27,238 bases of DNA from a virus. The position numbers and the translations under genes were made by a program. This document shows, one piece after another, positions 1,985-15,156 of this stretch. The stretch lies in IMG/VR virus record IMGVR_UViG_3300042091_000690, positions 1 through 27,238 of that record. One strand, 5' to 3'. The stretch's first letter is position 1, and every line of letters begins with the position of its first letter. Under the pieces are notes generated by a model, which saw only the letters and a program-made list of their open reading frames with translations, was not told the origin of the DNA and did not search any database.

Positions 1985-2067
1985 CCATTTTGCGCAGCGC
2001 TCTCCCGGTTCCCTCTGTCCGGCGAGCCTGTGAAACCACAACAATCCAATAAAGGAGCAATCCAACA

Positions 2068-3960
2068 ATGAAACCTTTGACGAACGTGCTCCCCGATTCG
2101 GCGTACCAGGAGCTGCGCATACAGGGGGCGGAATTAACGAAATCCTGGAAGGCCGGGCTTGCACCGGCGGACATGGCGCGTCTCGACGGCGCGCGTATCC
2201 CGCTGGTGATCCCGCGCGGCAACTGGCGCGATTACCGCGTCCAGGAAGCCATGGAAGTCTTCCTCAACAAGTGCCGCGAGCGCGAAGCCATCGCGCGCGA
2301 GATGGTGAAGGCGATGGTGCTCGCGAAGCATCCGACCGAACCGTCGCTGTTCCAGAAAGCGGGCGTCAGCTCCGCGCTGGGATATAACTTCTACGACCTG
2401 CGGCCTCCGGTCATGATGATCTTCCCGGTCAACACCCCGATGCGGGCGTCAATCCCGCGCGTCGGGCCGGTGAATGCGGGCGTAGGCACGTTCGCGACCT
2501 GGAATGCGGTGACGAGTCCTGGGTACCCCTACGGGGGCGCTTCGGAAGGCCATCGCGTGCAGGCGCGCACGCCGAACCGGATTCCTTACGTCTCTCCGTA
2601 CCGCGAAATCGGGTCGGAAGGCGAAGTGACCCTCACCGCGCAGTTTGCGGGCGAAGGCTATGTGGACAATCTGGCCGACGAGCATTTGCGCGGCCTGTTT
2701 GGCCTCTGGCTTCAGGAAGAGGGCATGATCTGGGGCGGCAACTCCGGCTTCAGCAACAAGGGCAACGGCTTCCAGTTCAACGGGAGCAACGGCCTGACGG
2801 CTACGCCGGTCCCGAGCGGCGGCACTGTCACCACCCACACCGTGGGAGCCGCTGGCAACCTGGGAACCGCAGTGAACGCGGCCGATCTGCCGTACACCGC
2901 GGCCCTCACCAACTCGCAGTACGTTTCCGTGGCTGTCGTTCTTCTGACCGCCATGGGCAATCCAGCCAATGCGCAGTACGGCTACGGCCTGCAACCCACC
3001 ATCTCCACCGGCTTGACCCCGAGCTTCAGCCGGACCAATGCGGACGGCTCGAAGGACACGATCCCTGGCGGCATGAGCGCAATCTCGGCGATTGCCACGC
3101 CGGTGGAAGCCCTCAGCGCCGGTTCGCAGTTGACGGTCAAATTCAGCATCCCAGCCGCCAGCTTGCCGGTCAAGGGCTGCTTCGGCTACGCCTGGTTCGT
3201 GGACGTGGAAGCGACCAACACCGGCTCCCTCGCCAATGCCAAATTCGCCGGCATCACCGAGGTTCCGTACTGCTACGTAAGCGGCACGGCCACCGGTGTT
3301 CAGGTTGGAACCTACTCCGGGCTTTCGACCGACAATAGCTACAACCCGCTCGACTTCGACGGGATGTTCTCGCTCAACATCAACTACAACGCCAACTACG
3401 GAACCGTCACAAACTACGGTTGGACGGACCTCTACGGCGCTTCCCTCACGGCGCAGAAAAACAGCCGCGTGACCGAGATCGAGAACATCCTGCTCTCGGT
3501 CTTCGAAGCCTGGCAGTGCGGCATCGACGAAATCTGGTGTTCGCCGGACGCCGCAGAGAATCTGGATCAGGCGATCCGCTGGCAGGGGACCGACAACAGT
3601 GGGATGCAGATTTTCTTCACGCGCGATCAATTGAACAACTTGGTCGGCGGCTTCGTGGTGTCGGCCTACCAGTCGCGCTACGCAATCAACAACCCGACCG
3701 GCGCCAACGCGATTCCCATCAAGATCCACCCGATGGTTCCTCCGGGCACGATGTACTTCCACATCAAGACCAACCCGTATCCGCATTCGCGGGTTCCGTT
3801 CACCACGGGCATGATCTTGCAGCGGGATTACTACTCGATTGAGTGGCCGCAAGTCACTCGCGAGTGGACGTTCGGTACCTACACTCACGAGGCGCTGGCA
3901 CAGATGCTGCCCGGCATTCCGTGGGTGCTGACCGGGATCGGTCCCTTCGTCGGCGGCTAG
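2068..3960 (+). CDS. Major capsid protein, HK97-fold-like, with large central insertion
   Basis: A 630-residue product preceded by AAAGGAG. It builds the phage head shell. Residues ~100-235 and ~420-630 read like the two halves of an HK97-type capsid subunit: the second half has the usual run of a Ltaq helix, IENILLSVFEAW, a CSPDAAENL segment and a C-terminal strand pair before GPFVGG. Between them lies a Gly/Thr/Ser-rich, beta-type stretch (~235-420) without the helices of the core; it is probably a surface insertion domain. At 630 residues it is much longer than a typical HK97-fold subunit (about 300-400). There is no obvious N-terminal cleaved delta domain within this frame. The following decoration-like pair and the hairpin after the stop fit the capsid assignment. 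Confidence 0.85.
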   Translation: MKPLTNVLPDSAYQELRIQGAELTKSWKAGLAPADMARLDGARIPLVIPRGNWRDYRVQEAMEVFLNKCREREAIAREMVKAMVLAKHPTEPSLFQKAGVSSALGYNFYDLRPPVMMIFPVNTPMRASIPRVGPVNAGVGTFATWNAVTSPGYPYGGASEGHRVQARTPNRIPYVSPYREIGSEGEVTLTAQFAGEGYVDNLADEHLRGLFGLWLQEEGMIWGGNSGFSNKGNGFQFNGSNGLTATPVPSGGTVTTHTVGAAGNLGTAVNAADLPYTAALTNSQYVSVAVVLLTAMGNPANAQYGYGLQPTISTGLTPSFSRTNADGSKDTIPGGMSAISAIATPVEALSAGSQLTVKFSIPAASLPVKGCFGYAWFVDVEATNTGSLANAKFAGITEVPYCYVSGTATGVQVGTYSGLSTDNSYNPLDFDGMFSLNINYNANYGTVTNYGWTDLYGASLTAQKNSRVTEIENILLSVFEAWQCGIDEIWCSPDAAENLDQAIRWQGTDNSGMQIFFTRDQLNNLVGGFVVSAYQSRYAINNPTGANAIPIKIHPMVPPGTMYFHIKTNPYPHSRVPFTTGMILQRDYYSIEWPQVTREWTFGTYTHEALAQMLPGIPWVLTGIGPFVGG

Positions 3961-4003
3961 GCTTGAACCTCCGCTGGGCCATATCCGGCGGCGATTCATT
4001 GGA

Positions 4004-4035
4004 TGGGCGCTGGTCAACAGAGGGGCCGGCGCCCA
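4004..4035 (+). other. Strong hairpin downstream of the capsid gene
   Basis: TGGGCGCTGG (4004-4013) pairs with CCGGCGCCCA (4026-4035), giving a 10-bp stem with one G-U pair and a 12-base loop. It lies between the capsid gene and the ribosome site of the next gene. No T-run follows, so partial transcript end, processing site or 3'-stabiliser are all possible. Such elements commonly set high capsid mRNA levels. Confidence 0.5.
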
Positions 4036-4056
4036 GTTCAAAAAAGGAAGATCAAA

Positions 4057-4635
4057 ATGGGCTACTTACAATTGAGTCAACCCGCGCTTGGCGTCGGTGA
4101 AAACATCGGCGCACGCATGGACGCCCTCGAAGCCTTGCAGCTTTCGGTCAAAGGGACCATCAGTCCGCAAGGCACGCACTTCTACGCCGGCGGATATGTG
4201 CCGGTATCCTTCACGGATGGGAACGATACCACGGATATCACGAACGACATTTGGGTGAACGAGGTCCGCATCCGAGGCAATACGCTCATCACCGGCGTCT
4301 CGTATCTCATCGGATCAGTCGGAACTACCGACACCGTGATCGCCATCCTGTACGATTCCAGTGGGAACGTGCTCGCTTACTCCGCTCTCGCCGGAACGAC
4401 CGTTGGAACCGCCGAAACCTTTCAGCGCCTGCCGTTCGTTACGGCCTATCAAGCCTCGCCCGGCTTGTACTATATCGGCATTTCCACCAACGGCACGCAC
4501 GCGCATCTTCAAACCCAAGTGGCCGGCAACCACAACGCCGGAGTCATCACCGGACAGACTTTCGGCACGCCTACGGCCATCACTCCGCCGAGCACCTTCA
4601 CGGCGAACAAAGGCCCGATTGCAATGTTGTACTAG
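4057..4635 (+). CDS. Putative capsid decoration protein, paralogue A
   Basis: A 192-residue product. The ATG at 4057 is chosen because AAGGAAG lies just upstream and because it aligns with the start of the next gene (MGYLQLSQP versus MSYLQLSQP). After a short N-terminal helix, the protein is beta-rich with phrases such as HFYAG, AILYD, SSGNVLAYS, FQRLPF, YQASPGLYYIGIS and a shared C-terminal GPIAM-Y. The 'LSPGxYYxxI' type phrase is frequent in carbohydrate-binding or lectin-like beta sandwiches on phage particles. Position directly after the capsid gene suggests a head decoration or head fibre. It is a tandem paralogue of the 4678 gene. Function is inferred; no enzyme motif is visible. Confidence 0.7.
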   Translation: MGYLQLSQPALGVGENIGARMDALEALQLSVKGTISPQGTHFYAGGYVPVSFTDGNDTTDITNDIWVNEVRIRGNTLITGVSYLIGSVGTTDTVIAILYDSSGNVLAYSALAGTTVGTAETFQRLPFVTAYQASPGLYYIGISTNGTHAHLQTQVAGNHNAGVITGQTFGTPTAITPPSTFTANKGPIAMLY

Positions 4636-4677
4636 GCCGACAGGCCCAAATTCAGATCAAAGGAGATTCGAAACATT

Positions 4678-5244
4678 ATGTCGTACCTTCAGCTCTCTCA
4701 ACCGACTCCCGAAAGCCTGCTCGACCGCGTGGCCGCTCTGGAAACCTTGGAGGTCACTGCGCGTGCGACCGGGATTGACGGGCAGCATTTCTACGCTGGC
4801 ACCTTCGTGCCGGCCTCCCTTTCAACCGGCGGGACGAATACCCAGGGCGTGGCCAACGCCATTTGGGTTTCCGAACTGCGCATCAGCGGCAATGTCCTGC
4901 TCACCGGAATTTCCGTGCTCTTGGGCGGGACCGGCGGAACCGATCACATCATGGCGATCCTGTACGACCAGTACGGCAACGTATTGGCGCACTCGGCCTC
5001 CACGACGGTCGTTGGCACGCTGCACACCTTCCAACGGCTCGCGTTCACAGCACAGTACCAGGCATCGCCGGGCCTGTACTACGTGGGCATCACCACGGAT
5101 GGGACCACGGCGTACATCCAGACCCAACCGGCCGGGGACCACGCCACTTCGGAGATCACCGGGCAGACGTTCGGGACCCCGACCGCGATCACGCCTCCGC
5201 TGACATTCACGGCGGCAACAGGCCCAGTTGCAATGACCTACTAA
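4678..5244 (+). CDS. Putative capsid decoration protein, paralogue B
   Basis: A 188-residue product preceded by AAAGGAG at 4659-4665. It aligns along its whole length with the preceding gene product, by eye well over half identical beyond residue ~40, with identical blocks YQASPGLYY and ITGQTFGTPTAITPP. Only the N-terminal helix (ESLLDRVAALETL) and the strand around residues 50-60 differ much. The two copies differ at many silent and non-silent sites, so the duplication is old. It probably forms a decoration layer or mixed trimers with paralogue A on the head; this is inferred from position and duplication. Confidence 0.7.
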   Translation: MSYLQLSQPTPESLLDRVAALETLEVTARATGIDGQHFYAGTFVPASLSTGGTNTQGVANAIWVSELRISGNVLLTGISVLLGGTGGTDHIMAILYDQYGNVLAHSASTTVVGTLHTFQRLAFTAQYQASPGLYYVGITTDGTTAYIQTQPAGDHATSEITGQTFGTPTAITPPLTFTAATGPVAMTY

Positions 5245-5311
5245 ACCATTTTCAGAACTTCAATCCGCGAAATCCTCCGCGCGGGATGAGGCGTGCAGTC
5301 GGTAACTGCCA

Positions 5312-5333
5312 GCGCCGGAACGAAGACCGGCGC
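5312..5333 (+). other. Intergenic hairpin after the decoration pair
   Basis: GCGCCGG and CCGGCGC form a perfect 7-bp stem with an 8-base loop in the 111-base gap before the signal-peptide gene. It is followed by ATTCTTT rather than a clean T-run, so it may be a weak terminator or an RNA-processing element that sets off the capsid genes from what follows. Confidence 0.4.
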
Positions 5334-5355
5334 ACCGATTCTTTCGAGGGCAATT

Positions 5356-6651
5356 ATGAAACTCTGGCGAAGTGGCATCCTGCTTTTCGCGCTGGCGATC
5401 CTGGCGTCCGCGCAATCGACGGCGGTTTATCCTGGCGCTATTGCGACAAACACCAACCTGCTCGTGCTCAACGTCGGCCATACCACGCTGGCGAACTTCG
5501 TAGATAATTCGGCGACATCGCTGACGTTTACCGACGGCGGAATCTTCACCGCCCCGACAGCCGTGCTGATCGGAAATGAGGTGATTTACTGCTCGACCGC
5601 GACCGGCAATGGCCTTTCAGGATGTACGCGCGGTTGGAAGGGCACGACCGCGGCGCCGCATTCTGCGGCCACTTCGGTCACGTCCTGGTATAACGATACC
5701 AGCCAAGCTGTGGCCGAGATCATCGCGCTCGAAACGGCGCTAGGGATCAACCTTGCAAACGTAGAGACTACAGCCCAAGCCGGGGCTGCATTGACCCCTA
5801 CGGTGGTTGTTAGTTTGCCGGCCGCCGCCTCCGCGATAGTCGGGCGCCCTTATGAATGGACGGCTTCACTGGCGTCAAACTTCTGCCCGGATTCAGGAGC
5901 GGCAGGGGTTGCGCAAGGAACAGCAGTAGCTACCTGCGTTACGCTCGACGGAGCCACATGGCAACCGATGACGGTAAATCCTGCTGCAACTGCCGGATCG
6001 GAATCGCTTAGCGAGGGAAACTTCACGGCGCACGACAAATGGAGCACCTCCGGTGATTTTGCCTGGTCATCCGGTACGATGGTGTTCACAAAGAGCACCG
6101 GAAGCGGCCAAATCACGCAGACGACGGGCAATATGGCGGTAGCTCCCGTCGGGAACGTCGTGTACAAGTTCACCTATGATCTCACCAGCGCCAATCCGGG
6201 GAACTTGTCCGCTTTCATCACCACTGGAATTCCATTAAGCGCGCCAATTAGCCTGGCCCTCGGAACCGGGAACGTCGTTTACTTCGTAAGCACGGGATCT
6301 CCGGGGAATTTCGTCATTGGAGGGTCTGGCAGTACGTCGGGCGGCACGTTCACGCTAGATAATGTTTCTCTCAAGCAGGTGACGAATGGATTCGCAGGCA
6401 GCGTAACGACCGCCGGAACAAAAGTCAGCGCCGGAACCTGCCAAGCACAGACCGGAATTTCGATCAGCGGAGTGACGCCATCGACTGCGGTGAATTGGTC
6501 TGTCGCGTCGGCGTTAGCCGCAACCTGGCAGACCGGAATTGCAGTCGTACCCGTCGTGACGGCAGGCACGGTAACGCTGAACCTATGCAATGGAACAGCG
6601 GCCGATATCACCCCGGCGGCAACTGTTCTGAATGTTCGCGTAGTCCTGTAG
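5356..6651 (+). CDS. Exported fibre-like virion-locus protein with signal peptide
   Basis: A 431-residue product. The ATG at 5356 has GAGGG five bases upstream and opens a textbook Sec signal peptide: a Lys/Arg n-region, hydrophobic core GILLFALAILA and an ASA/Q cleavage site. An upstream in-frame start at 5293 would bury the signal. The mature part is Thr/Ser/Gly/Ala-rich and beta-type. An early block (residues ~35-115) has the NEVIYCS...GCTRGW pattern seen in tail-tip and fibre modules; the middle (~200-340) resembles a jelly-roll or carbohydrate-binding sandwich; the end is Ig-like. It sits between head decoration and connector genes, so a head-fibre role is possible. A signal peptide on such a protein is odd. 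Function not established. Confidence 0.7.
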   Translation: MKLWRSGILLFALAILASAQSTAVYPGAIATNTNLLVLNVGHTTLANFVDNSATSLTFTDGGIFTAPTAVLIGNEVIYCSTATGNGLSGCTRGWKGTTAAPHSAATSVTSWYNDTSQAVAEIIALETALGINLANVETTAQAGAALTPTVVVSLPAAASAIVGRPYEWTASLASNFCPDSGAAGVAQGTAVATCVTLDGATWQPMTVNPAATAGSESLSEGNFTAHDKWSTSGDFAWSSGTMVFTKSTGSGQITQTTGNMAVAPVGNVVYKFTYDLTSANPGNLSAFITTGIPLSAPISLALGTGNVVYFVSTGSPGNFVIGGSGSTSGGTFTLDNVSLKQVTNGFAGSVTTAGTKVSAGTCQAQTGISISGVTPSTAVNWSVASALAATWQTGIAVVPVVTAGTVTLNLCNGTAADITPAATVLNVRVVL

Positions 6652-6655
6652 ACCA

Positions 6656-7534
6656 ATGTCCCTCCTTACTCCAAATGCGCTCGATCTTACTGTCCTTTCT
6701 TCGGTGCGCGCCTGGGCTCCGATTCAGGGCGGGATAGTGGACACCACAATTGCGGCGGTATCTTCTGGCAATGGCGTGACAGCCACTCCGGCCACAATGG
6801 CGAACATCTCGAAGGGAACAATTCTTTTCGTGGACGCCGGCCTGTTTCGGGAAACCGTGGAAGTGCTCTCCGTGACCGCCAGTACGTTTGTAGCGAACTT
6901 CTCTTATGCTCACGGAGCTGGAACGGCCATCGCGCTTGCGCAGGACGGCATCCTGGCTGGAATGATAACGGGCGCCAGTGTTTACTGGCTGCGGAAAACA
7001 GGACGTACGGACATCAACGGCGATATCCCGCAAACCTCCAGCTTCGTCGAACAGGACAGCTACGGGCCGGAGTGGTACGATGGCCACGGCGGCGACCGTT
7101 TATTCCTGCGGATCTGGCCCATCATCAACGTCTATGCTTTGAGCGTTAATGGGGTTTCAATTCCACAGAGCCAGTCTGTGACCTCTCCTGGCTGGGTGAT
7201 CGATCAGGGAGGCCGGTGTTTGGCGATGCGCGATCTTGGGGCCCCAATGGGGCCGTGGGGCTGGAACTGGAGAAGCCGCCAGATGCAGCCATATCGTTTC
7301 GCGCGTGGCACGCAAAACATCGAAGTAAGCTACATGGCTGGATTTAGCGCCGTGCCGCCGGACGTGAACGAGAAGTGTACGAAGATGGTGGTCCTTACGT
7401 TCAAACGCCGCGGGTATGCGGATCAGAAGACGGCAAACATCCCGACAGCCGGAACGGTCACATATCGTGACTGGGAACTAGACCCAGACATTGAGGCTGT
7501 CATGAAGTTTTACGAGCGCAATTTGGTATTTTGA
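6656..7534 (+). CDS. Head-tail connector protein, gp6-like, with inserted beta domain
   Basis: A 292-residue product. The start (TPNALDLTVLSSVRAW), the ILAGMITGASVYWLRKTGR helix and the C-terminal VPPDVNEKCTKMVVLTFKRR helix followed by a 'YRDWELDPDIEAVMKFYER' stretch match the layout of gp6-like connectors, which form a ring below the portal. Between the first and second helices (residues ~25-85) there is an extra beta segment (GTILFVDAG...ETVEVLSVTASTF) of a kind common in phage tail proteins, making the protein roughly twice the usual length. Its position ahead of an HK97-gp10-like gene supports the connector call. The stop lies one base before the next ATG. Confidence 0.7.
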   Translation: MSLLTPNALDLTVLSSVRAWAPIQGGIVDTTIAAVSSGNGVTATPATMANISKGTILFVDAGLFRETVEVLSVTASTFVANFSYAHGAGTAIALAQDGILAGMITGASVYWLRKTGRTDINGDIPQTSSFVEQDSYGPEWYDGHGGDRLFLRIWPIINVYALSVNGVSIPQSQSVTSPGWVIDQGGRCLAMRDLGAPMGPWGWNWRSRQMQPYRFARGTQNIEVSYMAGFSAVPPDVNEKCTKMVVLTFKRRGYADQKTANIPTAGTVTYRDWELDPDIEAVMKFYERNLVF

Positions 7535-7535
7535 A

Positions 7536-8090
7536 ATGACGGGGCAGGAAACCCAAGGAATCGGAGGCGCCGTGGTGGAGGATAAGCAGTTTCAGCAACT
7601 CCTGGATAGTCAGATTGAGTTAGGCAAGGGCCATGTCGTTCTAGTCAAGGAATTATCACTTCACTCCACGCGCCTCGCCGTGATGGATGAGAAGCTCGAT
7701 CGGCTCGTCAAACACGCGGACGACGTAAACGGCAGTCTCAACCGGGTCCGGGCGCGGCTTGAAGTGCTTGAGCAAACCGCGGCCACGCGCGCCCCGGTGA
7801 TTCAGGATGTTCCGGCCATCGAGACGCGCCTATCGGTTGTGGAGCGGCTGATCGCCGTGCATCCCGGTACTTGCCCCCTGATTGGGCGCATCGAGGCCAT
7901 GGAGACTTCGCTGAAGAGCGGCGAGACGGCGGCCGGAAAACTAGCGCAGAACGCCCTGAAGATCGTGGAGGATTTGCGGCGCTGGAAGGCGTTCGTGACG
8001 GGCGGCCTCGCCGTCATTAGCGTATTGGTCACCTCGTGCGTGGTCCTGTTATCGGTTTTGCTAAACCATATACTGGGGTTGAAGCCCTGA
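7536..8090 (+). CDS. Coiled-coil protein with C-terminal membrane helix
   Basis: A 184-residue product starting one base after the previous stop. Residues ~15-150 are charged and heptad-like (LAVMDEKLDRLVKHAD, RLEVLEQ, LSVVERL), predicting coiled coil. Residues ~152-178 are a single hydrophobic segment (VTGGLAVISVLVTSCVVLL) followed by a short tail. This resembles haemolysin XhlA-like or other one-helix phage membrane proteins, so it could take part in lysis, but it stands within the connector genes, far from any lysis cassette. A small accessory membrane protein acting on the host envelope is equally possible. Function is not recognised. Confidence 0.6.
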   Translation: MTGQETQGIGGAVVEDKQFQQLLDSQIELGKGHVVLVKELSLHSTRLAVMDEKLDRLVKHADDVNGSLNRVRARLEVLEQTAATRAPVIQDVPAIETRLSVVERLIAVHPGTCPLIGRIEAMETSLKSGETAAGKLAQNALKIVEDLRRWKAFVTGGLAVISVLVTSCVVLLSVLLNHILGLKP

Positions 8091-8200
8091 TGCCGCGCAC
8101 ATGGCGGGGATTGATGTACACGCAGGACGGAGCGGTAAGCCTCGGGGCCGTGACGCGGGATGCCGGCGCGGGGCTTTGGCAGGTTTCTTGGCGATTGTGA
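8090..8200 (+). CDS. Possible 36-residue leader or small protein
   Basis: An ATG at 8090 overlaps the preceding TGA (ATGA) and opens a 36-codon frame ending at TGA 8198-8200. The product (starting MPRTWRGLMY) has no recognised motif. The 4-base overlap is the same arrangement used by true genes nearby, but the ribosome site is weak and the frame is short, so it may be chance. It would otherwise leave a gap of 152 bases with no gene. Confidence 0.25.
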   Translation: MPRTWRGLMYTQDGAVSLGAVTRDAGAGLWQVSWRL

Positions 8201-8242
8201 GCACGCGCTAGCCGGCAAGACAGTACCGATGGAACCGTTCTG

Positions 8243-8698
8243 ATGTTTAAGCTCGTCCACAACACCGAGCAGGTGGCCGCCAGGTTGCGCGGACGTGGCG
8301 CGGCCATGCGGGAATCGGTGCGCCAGTGCTTCATCCGCATCGCGCTTTGGCTCCAGCGGGACATTCAGACCAATGCTCTCGAAGGTCAAGCCTTAAAGCA
8401 TCGGTCCGGCAAGTTGATTGGAAGCATTCGGCAGTGGACAGAGTTTGGGGATCGGGAAGCCATCGCTATCGTCGAGGGTGGCGGCGGTGTGGCTCCGTAT
8501 GGCGAGATCCACGAGTTTGGCGGCACGTTCATGATCCCGGCGCACATGAGCACGAGCAGGCTGGGCAAGCCGTTTGAAGTGCGGGCGCATTCCGCAACCT
8601 TCCCCGAGCGGAGCTTCATGCGCTGGCGGCTGCGCGAAGGGGAGGGCATGTTCCTGGACTGGATCGAGCGGGCGGTGAGCGAGGGCATCCAAAAGTGA
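8243..8698 (+). CDS. Tail completion protein, HK97 gp10-like
   Basis: A 151-residue product. The pattern of an N-terminal helical region, then 'HRSGKLIGSIR', a PYGEIHEFGG turn, and FPERSFMRWRL near the C-terminus is characteristic of the HK97 gp10 / minor tail completion family, which closes the head-tail joint. Length is as expected for the family. It follows the connector and in most siphophages is followed directly by the tail terminator; here a glycosyltransferase and a methyltransferase intervene. The stop codon overlaps the GTG start of the glycosyltransferase. Confidence 0.85.
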   Translation: MFKLVHNTEQVAARLRGRGAAMRESVRQCFIRIALWLQRDIQTNALEGQALKHRSGKLIGSIRQWTEFGDREAIAIVEGGGGVAPYGEIHEFGGTFMIPAHMSTSRLGKPFEVRAHSATFPERSFMRWRLREGEGMFLDWIERAVSEGIQK

Positions 8699-9783
8699 AC
8701 GTCTTTCTGGTGACCAAACAGGCGACCGGCTGTTGCAAATGGCGTGGTTCGATCCCGGCGAAGTACTTGGCGAAGCGCGGACACGATGTCCGGTTCTTTA
8801 CGCCAGGCCAGCGCATCGATCAGACGCCGGACGTGGTGGTCTTTTTCCGGCTGGACGCCAAGGACTGCGAGGATGCGGTGCTTTGGTGCAAGAGCGAGGG
8901 AATTGCCATCGTCTACGATGTGGACGACGCGCTCGATCTCGTGCCGGCGGGGAACCCGAGCTACACGGCGGCGCGGGACAGAATGCCGCGGTATCGGTTC
9001 CTGCTGGAGCAAGCCGACGTAGTAACCACGACGACGCCGCAGATTGCAGAACACCTTCGAGCGTTGGCCGGCCGCGATCAAGTCCTGATCTTGCCGAACA
9101 GCGTGGACCCCGACGAATGGCCCATTGCGCCCAGATTGCCGGAGCGCAAGGAGCTGCGCGTCGGCTGGTCCGGCGGGGCGAGCCATTTCACCGATCTCGG
9201 AAACGTGTTGGCGGCGATTCGGGATGCGCAGCGGCGCCGCGGCTTTTCGTTCGCGATTCAGGGATTCTGCGAGGAGGCGAGCCTGGAGGAGATGTACGCC
9301 AAGCACGTCAGCCTATACGGCGATGAGTTCCGGCGCTCCGGCTTTGCTCACGAGATGATGTGGTTTATTCGGACGCTGAAGGAATCCGGGCTCGAGTACG
9401 AGTTCTATCCGACAGTTCCAACGGACCGACACGCGGCGCGCGTCCGGTCGCTCGATCTCGATATCGGAATCACGCCGCTGATGGCCAATCCGTTCAATCG
9501 GTGCAAGTCTGCCGTGAAATTCTACGAACTGGCGATGGTCGGGGCCGCCGTGCTGGCGTCGGACGTGGAGCCCTACAGCGATGAAGTTCCGGCGCTCGCC
9601 AGAAACAATCGACTGGCTTGGACGAATGCGCTCCTTGGCTTAATCGACGTGGACCGCACCCGGCTGGTGCGTGAGCAGCGCGATTGGGTTTTGCAGAACC
9701 GCAATATGGAGCGGAATGTCCAGTCCTGGGAGTTCGCCTATCGGCGGGCGATGGAAAGAGCACAGAAAAGGATCGCTGCTTGA
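8695..9783 (+). CDS. GT-B fold glycosyltransferase (group 1 / GT4-like)
   Basis: A 362-residue product from a GTG start that overlaps the previous stop (GTGA). It would transfer a sugar from a nucleotide-sugar donor to an acceptor not identifiable here. The layout is that of a two-domain GT-B enzyme: an N-terminal domain with 'YDVDDALDL' (residues ~74-82), LPNSVD near 133-138, the hinge and start of the donor domain at VGWSGGASH (156-164), and the C-terminal KFYELAMVGAAVLASD stretch (~275-290), where the Glu (278) is expected to bind the donor. No signal peptide or membrane helix is present, so it acts in the cytoplasm. Being co-translated with virion genes, a capsid or tail protein is a plausible acceptor. 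That is inference. Confidence 0.85.
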   Translation: MNVFLVTKQATGCCKWRGSIPAKYLAKRGHDVRFFTPGQRIDQTPDVVVFFRLDAKDCEDAVLWCKSEGIAIVYDVDDALDLVPAGNPSYTAARDRMPRYRFLLEQADVVTTTTPQIAEHLRALAGRDQVLILPNSVDPDEWPIAPRLPERKELRVGWSGGASHFTDLGNVLAAIRDAQRRRGFSFAIQGFCEEASLEEMYAKHVSLYGDEFRRSGFAHEMMWFIRTLKESGLEYEFYPTVPTDRHAARVRSLDLDIGITPLMANPFNRCKSAVKFYELAMVGAAVLASDVEPYSDEVPALARNNRLAWTNALLGLIDVDRTRLVREQRDWVLQNRNMERNVQSWEFAYRRAMERAQKRIAA

Positions 9784-10325
9784 CCAGGATCAACCTTGGC
9801 TGTAATCGCTGGAAGTTGGCCGGGTTCGTGAACCTCGATATCGACCCGGCGGTCCAACCGGATCAAGTCTGCGACGTGGCGCACCTACATTACGGCGATG
9901 AGACGGTGGATGAGATTTACGCCGGCCACATGCTGGAGCACTTCCATTTCAAGGACCGCGACGCCGTGTTGCAGGAATGGCGGCGGGTGCTGGTCCAGGG
10001 CGGTCGGATTACGGTAACGGTGCCGGATATCGAGAAAGGAATCGAGGAGCAGCGGCGCAGCGCTATCACTGAGGAGTGGCTCCAGCAGATCGCCTTCGGT
10101 TCGATAGACTACGGCGGCCACTGGCAAGTGTTCACGGCCAAGACGATCCTGGCGCTCATGGGAAGGCATTTCCAGGACGTGGACGAACTGGAGACCTGCC
10201 CTTACGTGGTGGCTGCCGTCCGCTGGCAGACCATCGTTACGGGTGTGAAGGGAGGCTTTCCCCAACCGGAGAAAGTCTCCGCCAACGCGCCGAGAAACCT
10301 GAATCCGTTGAAGTTCGATCTATGA
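9780..10325 (+). CDS. SAM-dependent methyltransferase (class I)
   Basis: A 181-residue product. The start is taken as TTG 9780, overlapping the glycosyltransferase stop (TTGA), because motif I follows at once: INLGCNR at residues 4-10, then VNLDID (17-22) with the acidic residue that binds the SAM ribose. A MLEHF motif (51-55) and a 'GGRITVTVPDI' strand (74-84) complete the pattern of small class I methyltransferases of the type often paired with glycosyltransferases in surface-sugar loci. The substrate could be the sugar placed by the neighbour enzyme or a virion protein. The C-terminus carries NLNPLKF, also found at the end of the frameshifted chaperone. There is no DNA-methylase NPPY or PC motif. 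Confidence 0.8.
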   Translation: MTRINLGCNRWKLAGFVNLDIDPAVQPDQVCDVAHLHYGDETVDEIYAGHMLEHFHFKDRDAVLQEWRRVLVQGGRITVTVPDIEKGIEEQRRSAITEEWLQQIAFGSIDYGGHWQVFTAKTILALMGRHFQDVDELETCPYVVAAVRWQTIVTGVKGGFPQPEKVSANAPRNLNPLKFDL

Positions 10326-10972
10326 GACCGCTGGGCACCTGCACCACCGACAGTACGGGCCTGATCGTTACGCTCACGCGTGGCCGATTCTTCGACCCAA
10401 GTTGGGCGACGCTTCCGTTTTGCATTGGTGGGAATGGCGTGGAAGCGAACGCCACGCTTCAATCCGTGCAATCCCAGCGGCAAGTCACGCTTACCGGGCC
10501 GATTGGGCCGTACTTGACGCCGGTGGCCTTCGCACCGACGCGGGAAACCATCTATCAGGCGTTCTACAACAAGATGACGGCCGGCGTGCCAGGCTTGAAG
10601 ACCACCAAACGAAGATCCCTGCTTTTCGGCGATCTTCCGCCGGAACAGCAACCGGCGCTGTTCATCGAAGAGGTCGGGCAGAACCCGGAGTCCAGCCAGC
10701 GCGGGCTGAAGTACAAGTGGGAACTCGATGTGGTGCTGGGTCTCTACGTCTTCAATAGCGACACAGACCAAGTTTTCCCTACCATGAATCCTATCCTCGA
10801 TTGGATTGAGGCGACGTTGCCCGGAGACGATCCACAGAGCCCCGGCGGCAATCCGCAGACGCTAGGCGGCCTGGTGTACTGGGTGCGGCTCACCGGCGAC
10901 GGCAAAGCGTATTCCGGCGCAAAGGGAGGCCAAGGGTTCGCCTACCTGCCCGCGCGCATAACCACGTTCTGA
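10322..10972 (+). CDS. Tail terminator protein with extra N-terminal beta domain
   Basis: A 216-residue product, ATG overlapping the previous stop (ATGA). From residue ~68 on it matches the tail-terminator pattern: a helix (TIYQAFYNKM), TTKRRSLLFGDLPPEQQPALF, KWELDVVLGLYVF, PILDWIEATLPGDD, 'TLGGLVYWVRL' and a final strand. Such proteins cap the tail tube and join it to the head. The first ~67 residues are an added beta module (LIVTLTRGRFFDPSW...CIGGNGV...SVQSQRQVTLTG) of a kind I recognise from phage tail-tip proteins. The position just ahead of the tail tube gene agrees. Confidence 0.8.
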   Translation: MRPLGTCTTDSTGLIVTLTRGRFFDPSWATLPFCIGGNGVEANATLQSVQSQRQVTLTGPIGPYLTPVAFAPTRETIYQAFYNKMTAGVPGLKTTKRRSLLFGDLPPEQQPALFIEEVGQNPESSQRGLKYKWELDVVLGLYVFNSDTDQVFPTMNPILDWIEATLPGDDPQSPGGNPQTLGGLVYWVRLTGDGKAYSGAKGGQGFAYLPARITTF

Positions 10973-11016
10973 AGAAAAATCAGCCGGCGCGTCCGGCAAA
11001 AAGGAGTTTTACAAAA

Positions 11017-11790
11017 ATGAGTGCTCCCATCACGCAGTTGGTACAGGGCGGCGCCGGAGACATGATCTGGGTTCCGAGCGGACCGTATGCAACCACGAGC
11101 GGCGCCACGCCGCGGCGCTTCGGCATCATGCAGGAGGTCTCGGTGGATTTTGCCGGGTCCATGAAGGAGTTGTATGGCAAGAAGCAAATCGCCATCAACA
11201 TCATGAACACCGAGCTGAAGATCACCGGCAAGGCCAAATCGGCCGAGTTCAAGGCGGATCTGCTCAACTTCTTCTTCGGAGTTGCGGCGCCAGTTACGGG
11301 AATGACGCGGCGCGTTGCTCTCGACGAGGCGGCTACGCCATCGAGCGGCACGTACACCGTGGCGCAGACCACGAAGTTCGCCGAAGACCTGGGCGTGTAC
11401 GATACGGTCACCGGCCTCTGGATGCCGGCCGTGACGGCCACGCCGCCGCTCGGTTCGTACATCCCCGGCGCAGCGGGCACGGGAACCTACACGTTCAACG
11501 GCAGCGACTCCAATCCGAAGTTGATAACGTATGCCTACACCGTGGCCGCTACCGGAGTCAACGTACCGTTGCTCAACATTCCGATGGGCAGCGGGCCGCG
11601 GTTTCAAGTCACGATCACCAACGCGCAGATCGACGGGCTGCAATGCACGGTGACCCTGAACAAGTGTGGAAGCACAAAACTCGGAATGGCGTGGAAGTAT
11701 AACGATTTCAACATCCCCGAGTTCGACTTCTTCGCGATGGACGACGGGAGCGGCGCCATCGGTTCCATCAATCTCGACCAGACCGACTAA
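11017..11790 (+). CDS. Major tail (tube) protein
   Basis: A 257-residue product with a strong AAAAAGGAG ribosome site, fitting high expression. The order of segments (RRFGIMQEVSVDF, SMKELYGKKQIAINI, LKITGKAKSAEF, then 'FNIPEFDFFAMDDGSGAIG' near the end) is typical of siphophage tail-tube subunits, in which a beta barrel stacks into hexameric rings. It lies between the tail terminator and the assembly chaperones, the standard place. Cys residues around 216-222 are noted but no disulphide claim is made. The gap after it holds a parS-like site and a terminator-like hairpin. Confidence 0.85.
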   Translation: MSAPITQLVQGGAGDMIWVPSGPYATTSGATPRRFGIMQEVSVDFAGSMKELYGKKQIAINIMNTELKITGKAKSAEFKADLLNFFFGVAAPVTGMTRRVALDEAATPSSGTYTVAQTTKFAEDLGVYDTVTGLWMPAVTATPPLGSYIPGAAGTGTYTFNGSDSNPKLITYAYTVAATGVNVPLLNIPMGSGPRFQVTITNAQIDGLQCTVTLNKCGSTKLGMAWKYNDFNIPEFDFFAMDDGSGAIGSINLDQTD

Positions 11791-11793
11791 GCC

Positions 11794-11809
11794 TGTTTCA
11801 CGTGAAACA
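11794..11809. promoter_or_regulatory. parS: Perfect parS-like ParB binding site
   Basis: The sequence TGTTTCACGTGAAACA is a perfect 16-bp palindrome and matches the well-known consensus of bacterial chromosomal parS (TGTTNCACGTGAAACA), at which ParB loads as a CTP-dependent clamp. It starts four bases after the stop codon of the tail tube gene. No parA or parB is visible in the window. Alternatively the palindrome works only as an RNA hairpin (6-bp stem, ACGT loop) ahead of the terminator-like element. Confidence 0.75.
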
Positions 11810-11812
11810 ACC

Positions 11813-11844
11813 GGAGCGGTCTCAACCGGGCCGCTCCCCATTTT
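11813..11844 (+). terminator. Terminator-like hairpin after the tail tube gene
   Basis: GGAGCGG and CCGCTCC form a perfect 7-bp stem with an 11-base loop, followed by CCA and TTTT. The T-run is short, so it is likely a leaky intrinsic terminator that lowers expression downstream of the abundant tail tube gene. The GGAGGA ribosome site of the chaperone gene begins right after the T-run. Confidence 0.55.
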
Positions 11845-11853
11845 GGAGGAGAT

Positions 11854-12237
11854 ATGGCACAGCAAACAGTGACCTTCGGCGGAAAAGTCTTCCGCCGCGG
11901 CAATTCGTATTTGGTGCTTCCCACGATCAGTTTTGGCGATGCGGAAGCCATGGCGGCCGATCTGGACAAGATCGAGGGGCGCGGGCCGGATGGAAAGTTG
12001 ACGGCGGCGGATCAGAAGGCGCTCATGTGGAAGGTGATTCTGGCTGCCGCGCGTCTGAACTACCCGGATATCACCATCGATCGGCTGAAGGGGCAGTTCA
12101 CCACACTGGGGATCTTCGACGCCTACAATGCCGCCACGGTCGGAGACACGGCCAACGAGGTCTACGAAGCGCCGGGGGAACTGGAGCCCGCGGCAAGTGG
12201 GTCGATGTCCCCTGGCGCGATATCCGCTGGAGCATAG
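11854..12237 (+). CDS. Tail assembly chaperone, short form (gpG-like)
   Basis: A 127-residue product with a GGAGGA ribosome site. It is mostly helical after a beta start (TVTFGGKVFRRGNSYLVLP) and ends with a Gly/Ala/Ser tail. Location between tail tube and tape measure genes, modest size, and an overlapping open frame in the -1 register point to the short member of a gpG/gpGT-type pair. These chaperones coat the tape measure protein during tail assembly and are absent from the mature particle. Assignment rests on position and frame arrangement more than on a sequence motif. Confidence 0.75.
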   Translation: MAQQTVTFGGKVFRRGNSYLVLPTISFGDAEAMAADLDKIEGRGPDGKLTAADQKALMWKVILAAARLNYPDITIDRLKGQFTTLGIFDAYNAATVGDTANEVYEAPGELEPAASGSMSPGAISAGA

Positions 12238-12560
12238 CGACCGCGACCGGCTGGACGCTCGACTACATTCGCCGCGGGCTTACGCTGCGCGATGTCAACG
12301 ATGCGCTGCTGTACTGGCGCGAGAACCCGCCAACGCATGAGGCCATCGGCACTGTGCTGCGCGGATTCTCCGGCGCTGCGCTTCCACCGCGCAAGCGTTC
12401 TTCCAAAGGCAAACCCGTGCGCGAATCCTCCTCAGAAACCGAGACCCGGCCCGCTTCCGTCGCCATGCTGGAGGCTTTTGGCTTTCAGATTGGCGGTCCC
12501 AAACCCAGTACCAACCTCAATCCTTTGAAGTTCCAACCAAAACACAAACGCCATGGCTGA
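11854..12560 (+). CDS. Tail assembly chaperone, long form made by -1 frameshift (gpGT-like)
   Basis: The frame at -1 relative to the 11854 gene stays open to 12560. Its part downstream of ~12178 has protein-like content: DVPWRDIRWSIA, then 'GWTLDYIRRGLTLRDVNDAL', LLYWRENPP, and a basic/Ser-rich linker ending in NLNPLKF. It has no good start codon or ribosome site of its own. A -1 slip at the G5 run (12174-12178) would join 108 residues of the short form to about 127 more, giving a ~235-residue product. The long form is expected to bridge the tape measure protein and the tail tube protein. The stop overlaps the tape measure start by 8 bases. Confidence 0.7.
12172..12180 (+). other. Candidate -1 slippery site in the chaperone gene
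   Basis: In the zero frame the codons are CCG GGG GAA. After a -1 slip the P-site GGG re-pairs with GGG and the next codon read is GGA, entering the downstream frame. It is about 57 bases before the zero-frame stop, the usual distance. It is not a perfect X XXY YYZ heptamer, so another slip position is possible. Confidence 0.45.
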
Positions 12561-15156
12561 TGAAGTTCGCGTACAAATCACCGGTACGGACGACGCGACT
12601 CCGGCTTTTCAGTCGGGCGCTGAAGCTGCGGACGTTTACAGCCAGAAGCTCACATCTCTCGGAGACGTGTTCGAATCTTTCAGCGCCCGGATAAACGACA
12701 ATGTAGCGGCGCAACAGGCTGCGGCGGCTGGCGGGAACAGTTTGGGGGCCTCGTTTGACAGCCTAGCTGATTCGCTTGCCAAGACGAACGCTGTAGCGAA
12801 GGAAACTGCGCCGGCTGTATCTGGCGTGGGAAACGAAGTTGCAAAAGCGAGCGAAAGCGCCGCAGGATTTGGCGATAAGATCGCCAATTTCATCGAGCAT
12901 CCCTTGCAGTCTGCCGGCGAGGCGGCTAAGGGATTCGTAACGGCTATCGGTCCAGTAGGCATCGTGTCTCTGGCGGCTGGCGCTGGGCTGATGGAACTCG
13001 GCAAGCAGGCTTTTGATCTGGTCAACGAGGAGGGCGCCGCTGCTCGTGGCACGCAGAACCTCGCCAACATGCTCAATCTCAGTTACGAGCAAACCAAGAA
13101 ACTCGGAGAGATGGCGCGCTTGGTAGACACTGACATCGGCAGTTTGGCGCGGGCGTCGTTCCGCCTTGCCGAAGCGTTGGATGATCCCACTGGAGCCGGC
13201 AAGAAAGAAGCCGACATTCTGCAAAAGATGGGGATCAGCGCCAAGGACTCTGGCGATGCTCTCTTGCAGGTTCTGCAAAAACTCGCCGAGATGCCAGACA
13301 AAACCAAACGCGTCGAAGAGGCGCATATTCTGCTTGGCCGCGCATCTTTCCAGTTGGAGCCACTGATCGAGAATTACGACCGCCTGAAGAAAGCCATCGA
13401 AGATATGGGCGGCGTGGTGTCCAAAGAGGGCGTTGAAAGCGTGATGGAGGCCCATGAAAAAATAACCCAACTCGGGATCGCCTGGGACCACCTGAAGGAG
13501 CAGATGGCCGCGAAGTTGAGCGGGGTTGTTGAGATTGCGGTCAAACTGGTGACCCCTACTCCCGGCGGAGGCGCGGAGGCGCTGGAAGATCAACTGACGC
13601 GCGCCAAGCAGCTCGTGGCGAGCATGGCTTCCGCTGGATACGCCACCGGAGGCGAGGACATCTTTGGGATCTCGGTTGAAGACGCCAAGGCTAAAGTGGC
13701 TGCGCTTGAGAAGCAAAAGGCAACGCAGGACGATGCTGCTGCGAAGGCCAAAGCTGTTACCGATGCGGCCATCTCCGGGGCCAAACAGTGGCAAGCCGCT
13801 AATGACAAAACCCTGGACGGGATGAAAGAGAAGTTGGAGACTGTCTCCGCGAAAGCCAAGACTCTAGCTGGCGAGCTTGGCAATACGATCAAGCCGCTGG
13901 CGACGGAGGACCGCGCGGCCACTCAGCGGGACTACAACGCGGCGGTGAAAGAGGAGGCCGCGCTGAAACTACAGATCAAGACTGCGGAGCGGGCTGCCAG
14001 CGGGGAGGATGCGAAGGAGGCGCAACGCCAGTTCCAGGAGCAGATGAAGCGGGAAGATGAAGAGGCGAAGCACTGGTGGCGTGACTACGACGAAAAGCGA
14101 AAGGCCATTGAAAAGCAGGGGGATGAGGCTGCGGAAGCGGCTCTCGCACAGATTCGAATCAATGAATTGATGGTGGCCGATCAAGCCAAGATTCTGAAAA
14201 AGAATCCGATGGACGAGATCGACAAGTGGAATCGGGAGGCGGCCGAAAAGACTGCGGACGCCAAAGCCAAAGCCGAAATATCCGCAGCCACCAGCGCCTA
14301 CGAGTTCGGCAAGGCGCAGGCAGAGCGTCGGTTGAAAGACCATCAGATCGACGCGGCGCAGGAGATCAAGATCCTGAAGGATCTGGAGACCGCCAAGTCT
14401 GAAGCGCAGCAAAAGGCCGCACAGGCGGAAGTCGGCGGAAGGATGGACGATGCCGGAGTGATTGAGGTCGAGGCCAAACTCGCCAAACTGCAAGCGGACT
14501 ACAAGCGCACGATGGCGGCATTGGACGAGGACGCCAAGAAAGCGCTCACGACGATGCAGGCAACGACAGTCGGAGCGATTAACAGTATAGGCAACGCGTT
14601 TGACCGCGGTTTCGCGCAGTGGGCTGGACACGGCAAGAGCTTCGGCAAAGCCATGGCCCAGTCGTTCCGCGAGATGGGCGCTTCGATGATGGAGAACGTC
14701 GAGAAGGCCACCGTCAAAATGCTTGAGCAGGCGGCAATTCAGAAAATGATTGGGAAAGAACAGGCTATGTCCCAGGCTTATCAGGCCGCCGCGAAGGCGT
14801 ACAATGCGATGGCCGGCATACCGTACGTTGGACCGATCCTGGGCGCCGCCGCCGCCGCAACGACTTTCGCCGCCGTCGCCGCTTTCGCTGGTTCTGCCGA
14901 GAAGGGCGCGCAGCTTCCTGCCACGGGCGGACCGTTCCCGATGCTCCTTCATAAGAAAGAGCGCGTTTTGACGGCTGAAGAAACCGCCGACTATAATGCG
15001 GGGACCAAACGCGGGGGCGACACGCACAACCACTACTACACCTACAACGCGGCGCAGGGTGAATCGCCGGGCTCCATCATGCAGAACAAGGCGGCGTTCC
15101 GGCAGATGGTGCGCGAGGCGGCGCGGGCTTGGATTCCGGCCGGGCAGGGAGCATAG
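12553..15156 (+). CDS. Tail tape measure protein
   Basis: An 867-residue product, the length ruler of the tail tube. It is largely helical, Ala/Lys/Glu/Gln-rich with long coiled-coil stretches (~residues 380-700). Two hydrophobic segments are visible: near 130-150 (IGPVGIVSLAAGAGLMELG) and near 750-790 (VGPILGAAAAATTFAAVAAFAG), typical of tape measure proteins that contact the host membrane. The C-terminal KGAQLPATGGPFPMLLHKKE phrase is also common in this group. With the rule of about 1.5 Angstrom per residue the tail would be near 130 nm. No muramidase or peptidase domain is seen. No Shine-Dalgarno sequence precedes the ATG, which overlaps the stop of the frameshifted chaperone. Confidence 0.9.
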   Translation: MADEVRVQITGTDDATPAFQSGAEAADVYSQKLTSLGDVFESFSARINDNVAAQQAAAAGGNSLGASFDSLADSLAKTNAVAKETAPAVSGVGNEVAKASESAAGFGDKIANFIEHPLQSAGEAAKGFVTAIGPVGIVSLAAGAGLMELGKQAFDLVNEEGAAARGTQNLANMLNLSYEQTKKLGEMARLVDTDIGSLARASFRLAEALDDPTGAGKKEADILQKMGISAKDSGDALLQVLQKLAEMPDKTKRVEEAHILLGRASFQLEPLIENYDRLKKAIEDMGGVVSKEGVESVMEAHEKITQLGIAWDHLKEQMAAKLSGVVEIAVKLVTPTPGGGAEALEDQLTRAKQLVASMASAGYATGGEDIFGISVEDAKAKVAALEKQKATQDDAAAKAKAVTDAAISGAKQWQAANDKTLDGMKEKLETVSAKAKTLAGELGNTIKPLATEDRAATQRDYNAAVKEEAALKLQIKTAERAASGEDAKEAQRQFQEQMKREDEEAKHWWRDYDEKRKAIEKQGDEAAEAALAQIRINELMVADQAKILKKNPMDEIDKWNREAAEKTADAKAKAEISAATSAYEFGKAQAERRLKDHQIDAAQEIKILKDLETAKSEAQQKAAQAEVGGRMDDAGVIEVEAKLAKLQADYKRTMAALDEDAKKALTTMQATTVGAINSIGNAFDRGFAQWAGHGKSFGKAMAQSFREMGASMMENVEKATVKMLEQAAIQKMIGKEQAMSQAYQAAAKAYNAMAGIPYVGPILGAAAAATTFAAVAAFAGSAEKGAQLPATGGPFPMLLHKKERVLTAEETADYNAGTKRGGDTHNHYYTYNAAQGESPGSIMQNKAAFRQMVREAARAWIPAGQGA

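Follow-up and report, generated by a model that had tools for sequence, protein, structure and literature searches.

A glycosyltransferase-methyltransferase pair inserted between two tail genes of an uncultivated phage, a candidate cassette for virion glycosylation

The window, i.e., the whole stretch of 27,238 bases that was analysed, is a viral record of IMG/VR and a genome fragment of an uncultivated tailed phage. It carries a siphovirus-type late operon, of which the head half encodes a capsid-type protein, decoration-like proteins, a head-tail adaptor and the tail completion protein (TC). These are followed by a glycosyltransferase (GT), a methyltransferase (MT), the tail terminator (TT), the major tail protein (MTP) and two tail assembly frames, and by the tape measure (phrog_2854) and distal tail proteins. 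The major-capsid-type protein (MCP, 2068..3960, plus strand as all the other genes with coordinates in this form) matches an unnamed family (phrog_13692, 2.4e-53), and its capsid role was assigned by synteny. Two tandem paralogues, about 55-58% identical, lie immediately 3' of the capsid gene (4003-5244); they are kept in the relative L006 and are likely decoration-type proteins. Between the head-tail adaptor (6656..7534; phrog_442, 6e-11) and TC there is a second lineage-specific insertion (7536-8242), missing from L006, which is made of a 36-codon frame and the gene (7536..8090) of a coiled-coil-like protein of 184 aa, whose C-terminal segment is hydrophobic. Among the loci compared, homologues of this protein were found only in a near-identical contig (IMGVR_UViG_3300014165_000042).

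The left flank of the enzyme pair is TC (8243..8698), a Neck1-type protein whose match to phrog_26 (E 0.0014) is weak alone; TC was also aligned to its syntenic orthologues. The right flank is TT (10322..10972), which matches phrog_8150 (3.1e-20) and the tail terminator family phrog_4204 (4e-5). TT has an N-terminal extension of ~72 aa (10322-10540) that is common to L006 and missing in the Acinetobacter and Brevundimonas phages (alignment A2). MTP, the tail tube protein (11017..11790), was recognised by its position and by matches to an unnamed family (phrog_8234, 3.5e-38) and to TIGR01603 (E 0.025, below the cut-off). The initial annotation had described two enzymes between TC and TT, joined by GTGA, TTGA and ATGA overlaps, and this is what we read directly in the DNA: the 4-bp start-stop overlaps of TC/GT, GT/MT and MT/TT are AAAAGTGAACG, GCTGCTTGACC and TCTATGAGACC (GTGA, TTGA and ATGA). 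GT thus starts with GTG (8695..9783) and MT with TTG (9780..10325); the list of open reading frames starts MT at 9684, and 9780 is the coupled start. The overlaps with both neighbours argue for co-translation of the pair rather than for a promoter and terminator of its own, in support of the earlier proposal that the enzymes are produced with the virion proteins.

That TC and TT are normally adjacent had also been claimed, and it holds in related phages. We scanned viral contigs with a six-member MTP profile, which retrieved 80 loci, and located both TC and TT in 69 of them with iterated profiles of the window proteins. The two genes overlap, with spacings of -8, -4 or -1 bp, in 64 of these 69 loci. 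The exceptions are L027 (+10), L066 (+100), L024 (+274, with a small ORF), L057 (+1300, with other cargo) and the window itself, for which the spacing is listed as 1377 because the ORF caller chose an upstream TT start; the real cargo is GT plus MT (8695-10325). In L057, TT is fused to a repeat domain of roughly 420 aa (L057:6172-7860). L093 (JACTVF010000085.1), whose capsid gene is likewise related (45%), has a 4-bp TC/TT overlap too; its contig was assigned to the bin of a Methanoregulaceae archaeon from SPRUCE, which may reflect an archaeal host or mis-binning.

The nearest relatives of the window, L006 (70% identity in MCP, 53% in TC and 64% in TT) and L014 (61% in MTP), are empty sites, in which TC and TT overlap by 4 bp. 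Neither a GT of the window family nor a Methyltransf_11 domain was found in these two contigs, which are possibly fragments. At both sides of the junction the proteins of the window and L006 can be aligned up to their final residue, TC ending in EGIQK or EGIQR and TT beginning with MRPLGTCTTD or MRHLGTCTTD. Hence, nothing was lost at the insertion. Taken together, the empty sites, the aligned ends and the prevalence of overlapping TC/TT pairs point to a precise gain: the cassette appears to have entered the window lineage by exact insertion, with the overlaps preserved and no loss. As in morons and other late-operon cargo, extra genes separate two genes that adjoin each other in relatives, and the flanks are intact. 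The near-identical contig encodes the pair too (13,957 bp at 99.96%, 5 SNPs), and no further locus of the tail-module survey has a GT of this family. Two of the five SNPs (8840 and 8845) fall in GT, where two residues differ. Base composition was uninformative as a sign of foreign origin, GC being 0.59-0.65 in the pair vs 0.55-0.64 in its surroundings.

The sequences of both enzymes agree with the sugar-modifying type assigned initially. GT (362 aa) is GT4-like, putatively of the GT-B type. It matches the glycosyltransferase family phrog_7162 over most of its length (residues 2-323, E 2.6e-33) and Glyco_trans_4_4 of Pfam (1.7e-8). In the window protein, Pfam matches are to GT4 N-terminal domains only; the C-terminal domain Glycos_transf_1 was matched in the relative L102. 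Every residue that is at least 95% conserved across 81 members of the family is present in the window GT. The near-invariant residues that it keeps are R17, P21, D77, D78, N135, D256, F267, N268, K271, S272, K275 and E278, and these include the invariant DD, N and FNxxKSxxKxxE pattern. MT (181 aa) is a class I SAM-dependent methyltransferase, with matches to Methyltransf_11 (1.2e-8; 35.9 bits vs a cut-off of 21.2) and phrog_6636 (4.6e-8). Its motif I and the acidic residue that follows are in place, G7, D20 and D32 being invariant in alignment A6; the motif reads LGCN, where most relatives have LGCG or GPG. Single-sequence structure models, made without alignments, had a pLDDT of 34 (GT) and 39 (MT), too low to assign a fold, and a sequence search of the PDB gave nothing useful. 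Within the tail-module family the cassette is confined to the window lineage, as might be expected of selfish or neutral cargo that has no current virion function, but the open frames, conserved residues and coupled starts have all been kept, which makes such an explanation scarcely credible.

We then placed GT in its wider family. Two scans with different alignments (A4 and A7), after removal of repeats of the same contigs, yielded 155 viral loci in 104 groups at 70% identity. Capsid genes were sought with the profiles of three capsid clusters, which are major head proteins by PHROGs (phrog_267, phrog_1328, phrog_1357, phrog_10), with a profile of the window capsid and with the L102 capsid. 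A capsid gene was detected in 100 of the GT loci (65 groups), and in all 100 it is upstream of GT on the same strand. The median distance over the 65 groups is 582 bp; 55 groups fall within 2 kb and 39 within 1 kb, vs about 11 of 65 expected within 1 kb (p about 5e-15) if GT were placed uniformly over the 6 kb that follow the capsid gene. The reference is uniform placement rather than unrelated cargo families, the flanks span 6-7 kb, and the capsid profiles were drawn from clusters around the GTs. Genes next to family members encode, among others, major head proteins, other GTs, MTs and nucleotide-sugar epimerases. Small coiled-coil-like proteins also adjoin GT: a 124-aa cluster occupies position +1 or +2 in 28 loci (e.g., L130:6869-7243), and in the closest relatives proteins of about 70 aa separate GT from the capsid gene (L180:5581-5793, L184:6737-6952).

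One of the checks suggested at the outset was to look for the same pair in related structural operons, and it was answered positively: GT relatives lie just 3' of the major capsid gene, several of them with an overlapping MT. An MT of the window type is within 1 kb of GT in 20 loci (15 groups). The order is capsid-GT-MT in L180, L181/L182 and L184, where GT and MT overlap by ATGA, and MT-GT in L100 and L102, with GTGA and ATGA. The L102 operon reads terminase, portal, protease-like gene, capsid, MT, GT, connector and tail genes, and tape measure. In L116 and L174, GT2-MT fusions adjoin GT. The best near full-length relative of MT that we found (L189:5784-6272, 29% over 163 columns, E 3.7e-25) belongs to a phage that also has a GT and a capsid gene inside about 1.6 kb. 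L184 (IMGVR_UViG_3300035698_005595, 2029-12922) has a sugar-synthesis island inside the head operon: from the capsid gene to a SU10-type adaptor it encodes GT, MT, one further protein, a radical SAM-SPASM protein, and Polysacc_synt_2 and GDP_Man_Dehyd-type enzymes, and a DegT aminotransferase precedes the gene in the portal position. From its gene content, this island is plausibly an amino-deoxy sugar pathway within the virion operon.

We favour the reading in which the pair attaches a sugar to a virion protein and O-methylates this sugar, with a probability of about 0.57. A two-gene glycan cassette would have entered precisely where the stop of TC and the start of TT overlap and, because it sits there, the enzymes would be made from the late virion message. 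GT would attach an activated sugar to a virion protein of the particle under assembly; this sugar would be host-derived for the window and made by the phage itself in some relatives. The acceptor would be an abundant surface protein, most likely the capsid, decoration or tail tube protein, which makes MCP and MTP candidates. MT would then O-methylate the attached sugar, capping it or altering its surface. We infer the activities of the enzymes, the virion acceptor, the methylation of the glycan and any benefit from the genes and their order. The initial annotation had likewise gone on to suppose a glycan on the virion, on which MT would act and which might mask virions or aid attachment; its interpretation overall is partly supported.

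The capsid linkage of the GT family suggests that the acceptor is a head protein. Since the relatives adjoin the capsid gene, the position of the pair next to TT does not point to a tail acceptor, and may reflect merely a permissive overlap junction. Ser/Thr content and C-termini singled out no acceptor candidate: compared with their orthologues in L006, which lacks GT, the MCP, MTP and decoration proteins of the window have no distinguishing Ser/Thr-rich or C-terminal tail. This counts against the proposal, as do the poor models of both enzymes and the GCN in motif I of MT.

The role of MT is where the proposal could be only half right, with GT glycosylating the virion and MT methylating something else, such as a small metabolite or a residue of a virion protein. 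MT belongs to a generic family, and its best NCBIfam match, a mycofactocin oligosaccharide methyltransferase (8.3e-6), is far below the cut-off. Yet the start-stop coupling of GT and MT is repeated in both orders, and the two activities are fused in L116, L174 and gp108 of mycobacteriophage Che8 (see below), so that we regard separate substrates as improbable.

The main alternative is that the pair is a late-expressed moron that alters host surface glycans (LPS, capsule or teichoic-type polymers) and thereby prevents superinfection or binding to debris. Enzymes of the GT4 and Methyltransf_11 types are characteristic of surface-polysaccharide loci, cargo genes do occur in late operons and need not act on the virion, and the cassette is missing from near relatives. 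Members of the GT family that lie outside structural operons, as in phi92, also count against a virion target. In diverse phages the family is nonetheless concentrated directly 3' of the capsid gene, and a seroconversion-type set was not recognised in the window: it has no recognisable membrane-bound GT, flippase or lipid-carrier enzyme, though in a genome fragment such partners may lie elsewhere. On balance, an action on the host surface seems unlikely. A third possibility is hypermodification of the phage DNA by base glycosylation and methylation against host nucleases. DNA glycosylation by phage GTs is known from work cited in PMC12619734. Against this, no base-synthesis partners were recognised in the part of the genome that the window covers, and the relatives of GT adjoin capsid genes and sugar-nucleotide enzymes; we hold DNA modification to be very improbable.

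If the preferred reading of a glycosylated and methylated virion protein holds, it may extend well beyond this phage. We put at a little short of even the chance that virion glycosylation, with common methylation of the glycan, is widespread in environmental tailed phages through a capsid-adjacent GT family that has no relation to the mycobacteriophage enzymes and of which the window would be the tail-module variant. Firm documentation of glycosylated phage particles is, to our knowledge, limited to few phages. Within its coverage, which takes in few subscription papers, a literature search on phage GTs beside the capsid gene turned up no description of such an arrangement. The GT family described here accompanies the capsid gene in about 65 groups, frequently together with a coupled MT and in some cases with sugar-synthesis genes. 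The named genes now allow tests of how common glycosylated virions are, and of their possible roles in adsorption, stability and shielding from binding molecules.

The best-known comparison is with the mycobacteriophages Che8, Corndog and Myrna, whose virion proteins are glycosylated by phage-encoded GTs (Freeman et al. 2023, as relayed in PMC12363180 and PMC12619734). The window resembles them in having a phage-encoded GT with a virion acceptor, shown there and proposed here; a glycan has been reported for the mycobacteriophages, whereas in the window the genes alone are read. It also resembles Che8 in its methyltransferase partner. Gp108 of Che8 (L178:4172-5347), annotated as a glycosyltransferase, has a GT2 domain followed by a C-terminal half that matches TylF/Methyltransf_24, of the sugar O-methyltransferase type. 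Hence, the combination of GT and MT does occur in a phage with reported virion glycosylation. The GT genes of Che8 are at the right end of the genome, outside the virion operon, in contrast to those of the window, which are within it. As BLASTP and HMM comparisons found no similarity between the window GT and gp108-110 of Che8, we class the window as working alike and not as a member of that system. By sequence, the window GT belongs with gp164 of phi92 (phrog_7162; about 26% identical along most of its length) and gp5 of Streptomyces phage Zuko (27%), both from outside head operons. In phi92-like phages, a cluster of four GTs lies between the endolysin and DNA polymerase genes and has no MT neighbour, unlike in the window. 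Gp5 of Zuko adjoins a UDP-glucose dehydrogenase gene and also differs from the window, having no MT partner and lying upstream of, and close to, the terminase gene rather than inside the tail module. The IMG/VR loci L180, L181/L182 and L184 differ from the window in that their cassette is inserted just after the capsid gene and not between tail genes, and L184 adds its sugar-synthesis island; like the window, they have a GT of the same family (33-36% identity), the order GT then MT, the start-stop overlap and a place in the late virion operon.
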